A DNA stretch of 64,000 bases from Pyrinomonadaceae bacterium MAG19_C2-C3 (lineage in GTDB: Bacteria; Acidobacteriota; Blastocatellia; Pyrinomonadales; Pyrinomonadaceae), in contig JANDLT010000020.1 of the NCBI GenBank assembly GCA_024330265.1, forward strand, positions 1-64,000, given 5' to 3'. This document shows positions 31,153 through 36,590 of the stretch, one piece after another. Within the stretch, counting starts at the first letter, position 1; every line of letters starts with the position of its first letter. The notes under the pieces were generated by a model, which had not been told where the DNA came from, did no database searches, and saw only the letters and a list, made by a program, of their open reading frames with translations. Both the position numbers and the translations under genes were made by a program.

Positions 31153-32604
31153 CTAACGCGCGGCAGAAGCGGGGCGCGGATAAACGACGACGCTGCGGTT
31201 GCCTTCGCGGTCAATCGCGCGGACGCCGAAGAAGTAGTTATCTTTCGACATGTCCGGCATCGTGAATGATGTACGTGTGCCGACAGAGCGGCTGTTCGTC
31301 CACGCGGGCGCGGTCGTCGCGCGCCACACGATTTCATATCCGGCGAGGTCGGGTTCGGTGTTCGCCGTCCAACGCAAATCCGTGTCGTTAGTTAAGCGTC
31401 CGGTGACGATTGAGACCGCACGCGGCGGGGCGGGAGCGAGTGCGATTGAGGCGAGGGCGGCGAGGTTGACGCGGGCGACGTTTGCCGTATAAGCAAAGTC
31501 AACGAACTGCGGCAAGTCGCCGTAAATCGTGCCGTTCTCGGTGCGAAGGTTCTGATGTTGGTGGCGATAATCTTCGTTCGGTTCGGTGAAACGAACCGCC
31601 GGAAAGCCGCGTTCTAAGAATGGTATGTGGTCGCCGCCGCGACCGTAACGGTCGCGGCGGTAGATGACTTCGACGTTCATCGCGGGAACATAAACATCGC
31701 TCACGTTATCAATGAAGCGCGCGAGTTGACGCGCCGCCGAATCGTTTTCGCCGCCGACACTGCGGCGCGTGCGTGCCTGTTCTTCCGTTTCATTCGACGG
31801 CACGCCTTCGGCAAAAACCCGCACCGTGCGACGGTCGCGCACGCCTTTATCGCTCAAAGAATTGCCGATGATGTCGTTGGTGAACATCGCCTCGATGTTC
31901 ATGTTTTTCACTTTCGCCTGTTCCGCGAAATAGGTCGCGCCGAGCAAGCCCTGTTCTTCTCCGGCAACCGCCATGAAAACAATCGTCGCCTCGAACTTGT
32001 GCCGCGCCATGACGCGCGCCAACTCAAGCACGGCGGCTGTTCCAGATGCGTCGTCGTTCGCGCCGGGCGCGTCGCACGTCGCGTCAGTCGGACTCGTACA
32101 CATCGAATCGTAGTGACCGCTGACGACGAGCGTGCGTTCGGGCGTCGCCGTGCCGGGAAGCGTGGCGACGACGTTGGTGAGGCGTGTCGGTTGCGGGATG
32201 CGCGGGGCGACGGGCTGAATAAAACTTTGCAATTCGACTTTCAGACGATTGCCGTTCGCGCGACTGATGTTGTCAAATTCACTTTTCAGATAATCACGCG
32301 CCGCACCGATGCCGCGCGTCGGGCTGGTCTGGTCGGACAAAGTATTGCGCGTCCCGAAGGAGACGAGACGGCGAATCGTGCGCTCGATGTTGCGGCTGTC
32401 AACTTCGGTAACGAGTCGGACGATTAAAGGATTGCGAACGGTGCGCGGCGGGCGTGTCGTTTGTGTGTTGGCGCGGCGCGAATTGTTCGGGCGACGTTGC
32501 GCGCGAGTTGACGGAACGGATGCCGTGAACAGCAAGCCGCAAAGCAGTGTGATGATGACGCGGCGCGAAAGCTTGGGCGCGTGTGAGTGTGTGATTTTGG
32601 GCAT
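31153..32604 (-). CDS. M28-family metallopeptidase with C-terminal FN3-like domain, exported
   Basis: 483 aa from the ATG at 32604; 33 further in-frame upstream residues look non-coding. A signal peptide lies at about 14-36, ending TRAQ. The M28 zinc aminopeptidase signature includes VVSGHYDSM, GANDDASGTAAVLELAR, AGEEQGLLGA and DIIGN, then the late HIPFLERGFPAVRFTE. These enzymes use two zinc ions to cleave N-terminal residues. The last 90 residues (AVSIVTGRLTNDTDLRWTANTEPDLAGYEI) look like a fibronectin type III module. Confidence 0.92.
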   Translation of the reverse strand: MPKITHSHAPKLSRRVIITLLCGLLFTASVPSTRAQRRPNNSRRANTQTTRPPRTVRNPLIVRLVTEVDSRNIERTIRRLVSFGTRNTLSDQTSPTRGIGAARDYLKSEFDNISRANGNRLKVELQSFIQPVAPRIPQPTRLTNVVATLPGTATPERTLVVSGHYDSMCTSPTDATCDAPGANDDASGTAAVLELARVMARHKFEATIVFMAVAGEEQGLLGATYFAEQAKVKNMNIEAMFTNDIIGNSLSDKGVRDRRTVRVFAEGVPSNETEEQARTRRSVGGENDSAARQLARFIDNVSDVYVPAMNVEVIYRRDRYGRGGDHIPFLERGFPAVRFTEPNEDYRHQHQNLRTENGTIYGDLPQFVDFAYTANVARVNLAALASIALAPAPPRAVSIVTGRLTNDTDLRWTANTEPDLAGYEIVWRATTAPAWTNSRSVGTRTSFTMPDMSKDNYFFGVRAIDREGNRSVVVYPRPASAAR

Positions 32605-32752
32605 TGATTTACCGGATTGTGTGGACGAGTTTTGTTTGAATAGAGCGTGCTTGATTTTAACGATTGAATCGACCGGCGCGCACGAACAGCAACAACCACG
32701 CAAGTCTAGCGGATGAAAAGCAAGCTAATTGCGCGTCCGGTTGAATAGCTTG

Positions 32753-33910
32753 TTAGCCCGCCCGTTCATTGGAAAATGCTTCGTCTAGAATCGCTTTTCT
32801 GTAATCGGGATTAACGGTTGCCTCGTAAAATACCGGCTCATGGTATTTACGGAATGATGAACTTCTACAACGAGCCATTTCAGATAATGCTGCCTCCATC
32901 CATTCTTCCTTTAGCTCATTTGTAGATGCATCATCAAATACGGAATTAGGCAAACCGCCAAATCGAAAGAAATACGGCGTGTTATCAAATTCTTCTCCGG
33001 GCAAAGGGTCGAAGCGTCCGCTTTTGGTGGCTTTTGATTGAAGTTCGTGAATCTGTATGGACTGCGCTCCAAAGATGAATCCTGTAGTAGCTGGTTTCCT
33101 GCGAAAAAAAGCAGCGCGGAGCACATACCGATTATTTATCGTAACAGGCAGATTATTATATGAAGAGGGGATAGATAGGACGAGTCTTGAATCATCAGCC
33201 TTAAGTCCGGTAAATGATAAAAGCTCCTTCACCAAATCAAAATACTCATTTATCCATTCACGGTCTGGAGCTAACCTGATACGCTCAACCAAATGCTGAT
33301 GTCCATCTTCTATATCCCCGTGCACAATTCTCGTGATTCGCCCTTTAGCTTCCGCTACCAGTTTAGACTTTACTCTTGGAGCTTTAGACGTGATAGCAAA
33401 ATGTGACCTTTCAATGTGCACATCCGGCAGCGTATCAGCGAAGGCTGCCATTTCCGTAATATCAACTGGTGCTGTTTGTGACCACAGAGTATCAAACCAC
33501 TCGCGCAATTCCTCTACCTGATTCTCTCTCTCAAAAAGCACGGACATCTCAACGCGCCCGATGACACCCTTTTTCGTAAAATTGGCTGAACCTGCAAGAG
33601 CATTTTCTCCCGCAATAATAACTTTGGCGTGCAAATCTTTGTAATGATGGATTCGTCCCTGATTCTCAATAATAAACCCCTGAATCTCTCGCCTAGCATC
33701 TTTATTACGAGAGGCAATCCATTCTTCGACATCCGTTACAATCCGCCAAGATTCGCAGTGCCTAATAAGCTGCTTGATGTAACTTACGCTTAGATACGGA
33801 CACGCAAGCCGCATATCTTCGCCTTTCGTTATCCGGCTTATTACTTCGTCAAACGGCGAGATGCCGCCAGATGAACTCTTGAGATTGTGGTATATCAATT
33901 TAATCGTCAT
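32753..33910 (-). CDS. phospholipase-D-like nuclease domain protein
   Basis: 385 aa. One HxK motif (His94, Lys96 in DLHAKVIIAG) followed by GSANFT (Asn110) matches the PLD superfamily. A single motif means two chains would build the active site. The remaining 230 residues, with LLSFTGLKADDSRL, are unrecognised. Related single-HKD proteins occur as restriction or defence nucleases and as stand-alone PLD proteins. GC is clearly lower than in the flanking genes, which suggests transfer. No methylase or helicase partner is adjacent, so a defence role is only possible. Confidence 0.72.
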   Translation of the reverse strand: MTIKLIYHNLKSSSGGISPFDEVISRITKGEDMRLACPYLSVSYIKQLIRHCESWRIVTDVEEWIASRNKDARREIQGFIIENQGRIHHYKDLHAKVIIAGENALAGSANFTKKGVIGRVEMSVLFERENQVEELREWFDTLWSQTAPVDITEMAAFADTLPDVHIERSHFAITSKAPRVKSKLVAEAKGRITRIVHGDIEDGHQHLVERIRLAPDREWINEYFDLVKELLSFTGLKADDSRLVLSIPSSYNNLPVTINNRYVLRAAFFRRKPATTGFIFGAQSIQIHELQSKATKSGRFDPLPGEEFDNTPYFFRFGGLPNSVFDDASTNELKEEWMEAALSEMARCRSSSFRKYHEPVFYEATVNPDYRKAILDEAFSNERAG

Positions 33911-34018: not shown

Positions 34019-35416
34019 TCACTGTACACGGTAAGCCTGATTGTTGATGACAAGGATGATGCTGCCCGCGAGTTGTTCGACGATGTGGCGGACGGACGCA
34101 TCTTGTTTGATGAGAGCGCAGAGTTGTTCGGAGTCGCGCTTGATGTTTGTGACGCGCATCGGTGTCCGGTATGAGTTATCAATCCACGTTTCGGCTTGGC
34201 GCGTGAAGCGGCGATTGCCGATGACGCGCGGGGTTTCGTTTGACGTGACGGAGCGGGCGCGGGGCGCGGCGGATGATGTCGGTGACGAAGTTCTCTTCTT
34301 TTCGTCTGCGTCGCTTGATGAAGCGCGGGCGTTAGGTTCGGTGCGCCGGAGAAAACCTTGTGCCTCGTTTTTTTGCGGTTGGGCGGCGGCGATTTTATCG
34401 TCCGCCCGGCGCGCCGCATCTTGTCGTGATTCAAATGTGGTGATGTCGTCCGATTGAGTGATTCGTGAATCTTGCGGCTCAAGGGGCGCGGCGGGCAACG
34501 ATGATGATGGTGGTAGTGGCGTCGTTGTCGGCGGTGCGGGAGCGTCGGCGGTGACGATGACATCTTCACCTTCTGATGATTTAGCTTGCGGTGAAGGAGC
34601 GGCGGACGATGGTGAGAGCATCATCAACGAATCTGTGGTGCGCCCGTTGATAGGAAGTTCAGCGATTTGATTCGTGGTTGTTTGCTTCGTCGCGTTGGGG
34701 GTTTGTGAGGCGTTCGCGGCGGTGTTGCTGTTCGCGTTCGCGGCGTATAGCCCGCTTGCGTTCGATGCCGCGTTGCCGTTCATCGTCATGGAATTAGCGT
34801 TCGCCATGTTTGCGTTCATCGCGTTGATGGTGGAAGCGTTGTCGCCCGTTGGTTGGTCACTCATCGCGGGGTCGTCGCTCTCCGTAATGGCTTCGCGTGT
34901 GGAAGCGGTTTGCATCGCAATCTCGCCGGATGAGTTCTGGTTGTTTAACCGGACGAACAAGCCGATGCAAACTGTCAGCACGACGAGGGCGGCAAGGGTG
35001 GCGAGCGTGTAAGTTGCAACGGATGACGGGACGAGATTAAACGGCGGCGTGAACGACTTCCAGAAGTCGGACGGCGCGTCAATGTTGTTTGTGGTGACGG
35101 GTATGACTTGGATTTCTGTATCGTCAGATTGATTTGCCGTCGTTGTTTCGGAAGACGCGGCGAGGGCGAGCAGCGAAGCTTGACGGCGGCACGCATCGCA
35201 CATCATCAGGTGTTTGAGATACGCGGCGCGCGTCGCTTCCGGCAGCGTCGTCGCGGTCAACGCGCTTAGTTCGTCAACGTCTAAATGTGAATCGTCGGAC
35301 GCGACGGGCGCGCGGGCAGAGGCACCAATCGCGGTTGAATCGGCACGCGCGAAAGTCTCCGGCGCGAAGTTGTCGCGCAAGAGAAGGTCAATCTGTGTGT
35401 CATGTCGCGTGTTCAT
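34019..35416 (-). CDS. zinc-binding anti-sigma factor with long low-complexity periplasmic region
   Basis: 465 aa. The N-terminal zinc-anti-sigma motif has His69, Cys73 and Cys76 (HLMMCDAC). One membrane span lies at about 135-156. Beyond it come an Asn/Ala-rich segment (166-250), LPINGRTTDSLMMLSP at 254-269 and VIVTADAP at 286-293. A Pro/Ser/Arg-rich linker and a C-terminal domain of about 75 residues with VRHIVEQLAGSIILVINNQAY follow. The membrane anti-sigma factor would hold the sigma factor encoded immediately upstream. The two signature words resemble TonB-dependent receptor sequences. The stop of the sigma gene directly precedes its ATG. Confidence 0.78.
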   Translation of the reverse strand: MNTRHDTQIDLLLRDNFAPETFARADSTAIGASARAPVASDDSHLDVDELSALTATTLPEATRAAYLKHLMMCDACRRQASLLALAASSETTTANQSDDTEIQVIPVTTNNIDAPSDFWKSFTPPFNLVPSSVATYTLATLAALVVLTVCIGLFVRLNNQNSSGEIAMQTASTREAITESDDPAMSDQPTGDNASTINAMNANMANANSMTMNGNAASNASGLYAANANSNTAANASQTPNATKQTTTNQIAELPINGRTTDSLMMLSPSSAAPSPQAKSSEGEDVIVTADAPAPPTTTPLPPSSSLPAAPLEPQDSRITQSDDITTFESRQDAARRADDKIAAAQPQKNEAQGFLRRTEPNARASSSDADEKKRTSSPTSSAAPRARSVTSNETPRVIGNRRFTRQAETWIDNSYRTPMRVTNIKRDSEQLCALIKQDASVRHIVEQLAGSIILVINNQAYRVQ

Positions 35417-36490
35417 TTAGCTTTGTCGGAACTGCTTTCCTTCATGTAGAACGATTGCTTCGGGCGCATCTTGCGCGTCGCCGGAATTGTTTGATGCGGG
35501 GAGAAAAGTTTGCACATCGAAAATTGTTGCGCCCGTTAAGGCATCGAAAGCCGAGGCGATGTCGTGCGGCGTCCAACGATATTCGCGGCGCAAAGTGTCT
35601 TCCGTCACGTCGCGCAGGGTCGCGTGAATCCGCGCGAGGCGACGACTGGCGGTCGCTTCGTGGACGCCGAGAAGCAAGCCCGCTTCCTTCAAACGCAATC
35701 CGTCCGTGTAGTACAACTTGATAAGCAGAGCATCTTCGGCGGCGAGCGTGGCGACGGAGCGCGTGAAGGCTTGACGCAAAATCGTCGCCTGTTCCTGTTG
35801 TGCGAACGCGGCTTCGGGGTCGAGCGTCGTCGCGTGTTGATGTTGAAATGCGCGGTTGATGTTGTTATCACTCGCCGCGCCGTCGTGCGCGAAGTGGTCG
35901 AAGTCCGTCTGCTCATCGGGTTGAATCAGGCGCGCGGTGCGGCGATGAACATCCGTGCCGAGTTGCGCGACGACGGCGCGCAAATAACCGCCCAACGAAC
36001 CGCAGCCGGAATAGTATGCCAGCTTGCCGCCTGTGCGATTGCTCGAATGTTCCGCTTTGGAATCGTTGGTGCGCGTGGTGCGTAAGCCGTGAAGTTCCGC
36101 CCACACGGATTGCGCCAAATCGTCGGCGTCGGTTTGATTGCGTCCGGCGACGGTGCGCGCCGCCGCGTTGACCGTCGCGGCGAAGCGCGTCATTAATGTT
36201 CGCCATGCCGCTTCGCTTCCCTGTTCGCACGCGATGACCAAACATAAATCGTCGGCGTGCAAGGCTTTAACAAACTCCGTCACTTCACTTGCCGAAGCTT
36301 CCGGTTTGTGTCGCAATAAATGTTTGACGACGACGCGCCCGATGCGCGCGGGCAGAAGCGCGCTCATCTCAACGCCGTAGGTTTCATCTACACCGCGCAA
36401 AACATCATGCGCCGCATCGTTCACCGCACGGCGCACGGCGTTCGAGATTTCACTTGGAAATACTTGGAGATTTTCGGCGTAATCGCTCAT
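35417..36490 (-). CDS. sigma-70 family (ECF-like) RNA polymerase sigma factor
   Basis: 357 aa from the ATG at 36490. A longer frame from 36565 is encoded by a word repeat and is rejected. Region 2 is around EAAWRTLMTRF...TDADDLAQSVWAELHG and region 4 around AAEDALLIKLYYTDGLRLKEAGLLLGVHEATASRRLARIHATL. It has a longer N-terminus (about 90 residues) and a C-terminal tail compared with ordinary ECF factors. It directs RNA polymerase to a specific promoter set, presumably controlled by the adjacent anti-sigma factor. A repeat ending CTTTTG directly precedes the start. Confidence 0.85.
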   Translation of the reverse strand: MSDYAENLQVFPSEISNAVRRAVNDAAHDVLRGVDETYGVEMSALLPARIGRVVVKHLLRHKPEASASEVTEFVKALHADDLCLVIACEQGSEAAWRTLMTRFAATVNAAARTVAGRNQTDADDLAQSVWAELHGLRTTRTNDSKAEHSSNRTGGKLAYYSGCGSLGGYLRAVVAQLGTDVHRRTARLIQPDEQTDFDHFAHDGAASDNNINRAFQHQHATTLDPEAAFAQQEQATILRQAFTRSVATLAAEDALLIKLYYTDGLRLKEAGLLLGVHEATASRRLARIHATLRDVTEDTLRREYRWTPHDIASAFDALTGATIFDVQTFLPASNNSGDAQDAPEAIVLHEGKQFRQS

Positions 36491-36590
36491 CAAAAGTAGT
36501 GGATAACGGATAGTGGATAGTGGATAGTGGATGGACAAAGCGGCGGACTTCCTTTCATTCACCATCTATCATTAACTATTCACTCCTGAT
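36491..36590. repeat. heptamer-word dyad (GTGGATA type), copy 2
   Basis: AGTGGATAACGGATAGTGGA and further GTGGATA units (36496-36532) face a weaker arm with CACCATCTATCATTAACTA (from about 36560). It begins 0-6 nt from the sigma-factor start codon. Confidence 0.75.

Follow-up and report, generated by a model that had tools for sequence, protein, structure and literature searches.

Receptor plug-like segments in the linkers of anti-sigma factors and VIT/VWA proteins in a family of Acidobacteriota

The linker of the anti-sigma factor encoded by gene P0001 of Pyrinomonadaceae bacterium MAG19_C2-C3 contains two words that, judged from profile and pattern searches, are derived from or similar to the plug of Oar-like TonB-dependent receptors (TBDR) and are not there by chance. 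The core of the original prediction, that this tail mimics a receptor plug or derives from one, is supported by the significant match of the linker to a profile made only from receptors, by the recurrence of plug pieces in orthologous anti-sigma factors and in VIT/VWA proteins, and by the presence of whole plug halves in some of the latter. We consider it close to an even chance, if anything slightly under, that these plug-like linker pieces serve as docking sites for a protein that partners plugs or TonB boxes and set sigma activity in this way.

P0001 (34019..35416, minus strand) encodes 465 amino acids and is located within a window, the whole stretch of DNA analyzed, of 64,000 nucleotides. 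An ECF-type sigma factor gene (35417..36565, minus strand, 382 amino acids) ends directly before the start of the anti-sigma gene; it exceeded the cut-off of TIGR02937 (47 bits versus 42.9) and reached 77.5 bits with TIGR03001, under the cut-off of that model. The anti-sigma protein is composed of a zinc-binding motif H-x3-C-x2-C (residues 69 to 77, HLMMCDACR; 35186..35212, minus strand), with H69, C73, and C76 invariant in alignment A1, a single transmembrane segment predicted by reading the sequence (around residues 133 to 155; 34952..35020, minus strand), a long linker rich in A, S, T, N, and P, and a conserved C-terminal domain. The motif in an N-terminal cytoplasmic domain together with the adjoining upstream ECF sigma gene places P0001 among the zinc anti-sigma factors (ZAS), as had been claimed; its score with Pfam zf-HC2 was 19 bits, below the cut-off of 22.2.

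Using a profile of ten homologs, the anti-sigma gene was detected in 112 of the 119 genomes from this GTDB family; those of its members that have names belong to the Pyrinomonadaceae and to other Blastocatellia (Acidobacteriota). The sigma gene cluster was present in 19 of the 21 neighborhoods compared, and most of them retained the order sigma, anti-sigma, peptidase-like gene, for which reason the homologs are orthologs. The third of these genes, an M28-type peptidase by eye (31153..32703, minus strand; cluster C2), is a conserved downstream neighbor found in 17 neighborhoods. Between the anti-sigma and peptidase-like genes there is also a 385-amino-acid ORF (32753-33910), phospholipase D-like by eye, with no counterpart in the 20 other neighborhoods. 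Receptor hallmark words were found nowhere else in the window, and no receptor gene was a recurrent neighbor across the other 20 neighborhoods. From these data, P0001 is a membrane-bound zinc anti-sigma factor belonging to a family-wide ECF sigma/anti-sigma pair, with inhibition of the sigma factor as its predicted role.

P0001 was picked for study because of its words, which are located exactly where they had been placed, LPINGRTTDSLMMLSP at residues 254 to 269 (34610..34657, minus strand) and the TonB-box-like VIVTADAP at residues 286 to 293 (34538..34561, minus strand). A plug profile built from 54 plugs of Oar-like receptors only (Z = 4,000 proteins, bias correction on) matched residues 238 to 281 of the disordered linker (34574..34705, minus strand) with 23.2 bits and an E value of 9.4e-6 over 44 residues. 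Significant similarity, the absence of which had been named as counting against the original prediction, was thus seen with this profile. GEDVIVTADAP obtained 16.4 bits on a matrix of receptor TonB boxes and can be considered a putative TonB box. The Pfam Plug model (PF07715) did not match P0001, and gapped alignment of linkers to whole plugs was no better than with reversed or shuffled sequence; therefore, the plug likeness of the P0001 linker is one of short pieces. Whole-plug homology of the linkers was dropped for the same failure of alignment, and only short pieces are claimed, with the exception of the VIT/VWA proteins that have a full plug half. When the 56-residue stretch containing the words was used as a query, the first match after P0001 itself was a VWA protein of the same genome (G000:C47; E = 0.04), followed by a receptor (E = 0.18). 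The codons of LPINGR are unlike among P0001, the gene of this VWA protein, and a receptor gene, so the motif of P0001 is not a fresh DNA copy, and recent DNA copying from receptor genes was ruled out. AlphaFold2 left the linker disordered.

The comparison was extended to 93 orthologous linkers (14,660 residues). The pattern LP[LIVM][NSD][GA]R occurred seven times among them, versus none in the reversed linkers and an average of 0.02 per shuffle. Besides, the flanks, which lie outside the selection pattern, fit the plug consensus, with I or V at position -3 in five of the seven and L at +10 in four of the seven (p about 2e-5 each, or 2e-4 and 4e-4, respectively, without P0001). The receptor-only profile found nine matches at E ≤ 1, versus none in reversed and 0.1 per shuffled set, and leaving out P0001 there were eight (0 reversed, 0.05 shuffled). 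Since the reversed and shuffled controls yield hardly any match or none at all and the flanks also fit, the plug pieces in this set are, at the level of sequence statistics, more than chance. The pattern for word 3 was composed after data inspection, and weight was put on the receptor-only profiles instead.

One kind of piece, LPxNGR....L and its variants, appeared in P0001 and five orthologs (L006, L067, L079, L097, and L111), and a second kind, GFQVDGASGxENVW..DG, had E values down to 5e-9 in orthologous linkers. It is represented by GFQVDGASGGENVWTVDGK and similar pieces in L124, L126, and L127, which were matched by a profile from VIT/VWA plugs alone (5e-9, 9e-8, and 1e-5, respectively; 0 in reversed or shuffled linkers). 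Most orthologs lack both words, the outcome that had been named as counting against the original prediction, and show no recognizable piece, but some plug piece at E ≤ 1 was detected by three combined plug profiles in 13 of the 93 linkers, versus 0 reversed. Presence is scattered over the tree, with six to eight changes per word, and simple descent of the words was dropped on these grounds. Recognizable pieces have been kept in linkers that otherwise hardly align. In two groups of orthologs, a D-G island can still be aligned; its conservation is modest (fourth of 87 and tenth of 93 five-column windows). At least one other piece is better retained than the TonB-box-like word.

Other carriers were sought with DNA patterns and profile searches in place of a proteome-wide scan. 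In the source genome, which has 11 TonB_C domain hits, the DNA pattern for LP[LIF]NGR was found in Oar-like receptors, the P0001 gene, and one VWA protein (G000:C47, L132/L149). The last contains ESLPINGRSVSRLLMMSPGA...NDSVIVTTDAD, with the two words reversed just as they are in P0001, and matched the TBDR-only profile with an E value of 9.6e-5. Among long frames of seven further genomes, the non-receptor matches to LP[LIF]NGR were linkers of anti-sigma, VWA, and VIT/VWA proteins plus one hydrolase, the anti-sigma count not being independent because anti-sigma hits were part of the reason for selecting these genomes. In the hydrolase, a metallo-hydrolase-like protein (L298, G027:C660), LPINGR looks like part of the protein's own fold and is probably unrelated.

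The plug pieces of the anti-sigma linkers recur in the linkers of two families of VIT/VWA proteins. The strongest clue is the plug match of the VIT/VWA genes L220 to L222, control reading frames from one genus and near a sigma/anti-sigma pair, which scored 33 to 53 bits with the receptor-only plug profile. Their linker has a complete plug half in receptor order. Thus, in L220 a TonB-box-like strand is followed by LPLNTR...LSPGV and GGFQIDGATGSENVFVVDGQEV, and then by a TonB C-terminal domain (Pfam TonB_C, 25.0 bits; cut-off, 24.6), while L222 exceeded the cut-off of Pfam Plug (26.9 bits; cut-off, 23.9). Profile E values of the VIT/VWA plug halves went from 1e-8 to 6e-18, the latter in L342. 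The succession of plug half and TonB C-terminal domain in one VIT/VWA chain was found in L220 (G060), L222 (G016), L342 (G105), L353 (G114), L351 (G088), and L358 (G111), and TonB_C also exceeds the cut-off in L166, L171, L174, L176, and L178. In the VWA protein L349 (G131:C368), the plug half belongs to the other receptor type, the classical Oar one (64.3 bits), and TonB_C was not found; given the difference between L342 and L349, at least two receptor types are represented among the VWA plug halves.

Another VWA protein, L356 (G023:C814), has the plug words 1, 2, and 3 permuted (LPSSTT...IKPS, TVSVSS, and then GGFQVDGASGSEN), in an order that resembles the reversed one of P0001. The reversal described in the original prediction is therefore not a one-off, being common to the VWA protein of the source genome and to L356 of another genome. 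Linkers of VIT/VWA type i (L315, L318, L319, L336, L337, and L338) contain long plug-like runs such as ENNLVVDGADNNAVRVTPGV and INNRQVVDLPMQARAD, and the C-terminal region is a different one in the VIT/VWA type whose plug halves are most complete. In five genomes (L220 to L222, G065:C17, and G076:C184), the VIT/VWA genes are within about 3 to 6 kb of the sigma/anti-sigma pair. A class-wide search indicated that the architecture VIT/VWA, plug, and TonB_C is confined to the same bacterial family; outside it, the matches extend over nothing but the plug part and are in receptor-sized frames. We found no description of this architecture in the literature searched, and the union of VIT/VWA, plug half, and TonB C-terminal domain in one chain is apparently undescribed.

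The anti-sigma factor ends in a conserved small alpha/beta domain of 69 residues (residues 397 to 465; 34022..34228, minus strand), modeled by AlphaFold2 with a mean pLDDT of 92. No credible Pfam match was obtained for it across 54 homologs, and no solved structure in the PDB was related by sequence or fold (best fold E value, 0.4). The same domain forms the end of VIT/VWA proteins of about 750 residues in the same bacterial family, and the C termini of L142 to L148 and L309 to L338 share it.

Several known systems resemble P0001 in part. In cell-surface signaling, an extra signaling domain on the receptor binds the C-terminal domain of the anti-sigma factor (PMC11637429), and the periplasmic part of HasS is partly disordered (PMC3984077). 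Like FecR, FpvR, FoxR, and HasS, P0001 is an inner-membrane anti-sigma factor of an ECF sigma factor, with a periplasmic part and a tie to TonB-dependent receptors, but here the anti-sigma factor itself bears the plug-like sequence, and its C-terminal domain is without known relative. We do not file P0001 under the cell-surface signaling anti-sigma factors because it has neither a recognizable FecR- or STN-type C-terminal periplasmic domain (54 homologs searched against Pfam and structures) nor a linked receptor gene with a signaling domain (window and 20 other neighborhoods). The Dma anti-sigma factor has a similar layout of anti-sigma domain, one membrane helix, long disordered periplasmic tether, and C-terminal domain (PMC13088901), but Dma ends in an outer-membrane beta-barrel and P0001 in the alpha/beta domain. 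With Oar-like plugs (PF07715), P0001 shares the match to the receptor-only profile and the TonB-box-like word, but as an inner-membrane protein with only a fragment in reversed order and no C-terminal beta-barrel following it. One related VIT/VWA protein scored 494.6 bits with TIGR03788 (marine proteobacterial sortase target proteins), below the cut-off of 551.65, and the VIT/VWA proteins described here have in addition a plug half and, frequently, a TonB C-terminal domain. The vWA-type periplasmic force transducers also join a VWA fold to a TonB/TolA-like architecture, but in those proteins the VWA fold stands in place of the TonB C-terminal domain, whereas here VIT/VWA, plug half, and TonB_C are in one chain (PMC12204202). 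Our literature searches retrieved no paper for "LPLNGR" and nothing on plug-like anti-sigma linkers in Acidobacteria.

We propose that, in the P0001 linker, a fragment from the N-terminal half of an Oar-type plug (QIAELPINGR....L..LSP) is followed by the TonB-box-like EDVIVTADAP, and that such pieces would be short docking segments imitating the receptor plug. The docked partner would be a periplasmic protein whose usual contacts are plugs or TonB boxes. A TonB-type C-terminal domain, either on its own or as part of a VIT/VWA protein, is the most plausible candidate. By tethering, protecting, or exposing the anti-sigma factor, this partner might hold or release it and so set sigma activity. 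The probability that the plug pieces are functional we put at about one half. Their retention in unalignable linkers, together with the different codons, favors selection or old gains. Against docking are the many orthologs without a recognizable piece, the scattered presence, the modest conservation of the island, and the disordered linker, and a pure TonB-box model is weakened because some other piece is better kept than the word resembling a TonB box. A broader version, in which the anti-sigma factors and VIT/VWA proteins of the Pyrinomonadaceae would share a plug-segment docking code read by TonB-type C-terminal domains, some of them fused in the same VIT/VWA chain, as a receptor-independent branch of envelope signaling, is possible but doubtful.

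The main rival is a serious one, namely neutral shuffling, by which pieces of receptor genes would have been copied into the low-complexity linkers of anti-sigma and VIT/VWA proteins and would now be decaying without function. Receptor genes are abundant (an Oar-like receptor query had 31 matches in the source genome), disordered linkers are tolerant, and the pieces and their orders differ between proteins. The scatter on the tree speaks in the same direction, as does the occurrence in VWA proteins (L342 and L349) of whole plug halves from two or more receptor types. However, the pieces remain recognizable where the remaining linker hardly aligns, the codons differ, the D-G island persists aligned among orthologs, and nearly all the carriers come from three protein families, not from any disordered linker; we judge shuffling unlikely on balance. 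Chance words in a tail rich in A, S, P, T, and N, to which the silence of the general Pfam Plug model on P0001 might point, are refuted for the linker set by the reversed and shuffled controls and by the fit of the flanking positions, and are scarcely credible for P0001 alone, given its profile E value of 9e-6.

The remaining two alternatives involve the C-terminal domain. It could be this conserved and folded part, and not the linker, that is read by signaling or N-terminal domains of receptors, as happens in known anti-sigma factors of such kind (PMC11637429, PMC3984077, and PMC9249621), but neither Pfam families nor solved structures show a detectable relation to the domain, VIT/VWA proteins end in it as well, and receptor genes are neither in the window nor recurrent in the neighborhoods, which makes this improbable. 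Even less probable, in our opinion, is that the plug-like piece acts as an internal pseudo-ligand, blocking the C-terminal domain of its own protein until a receptor plug competes it off. The domain and plug-like linkers are indeed found together in both anti-sigma and VIT/VWA type i proteins, but AlphaFold2 modeling of residues 240 to 465 showed no docking of the linker on the domain (linker pLDDT about 50) and so does not support intramolecular docking, and VWA proteins of the type in which the plug halves are most complete have another C-terminal region.

In known cell-surface signaling, it is the receptor that bears the part communicating with the anti-sigma factor. If the plug pieces of P0001 and its relatives are functional, the usual direction of recognition would be reversed, TonB-type proteins would gain clients that are not receptors, and one could test directly which partners other than its own barrel a plug segment binds. 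The recurrence of plug fragments in related anti-sigma factors and in another family of surface proteins points to an undescribed wiring between receptors, TonB-type proteins, and gene control.
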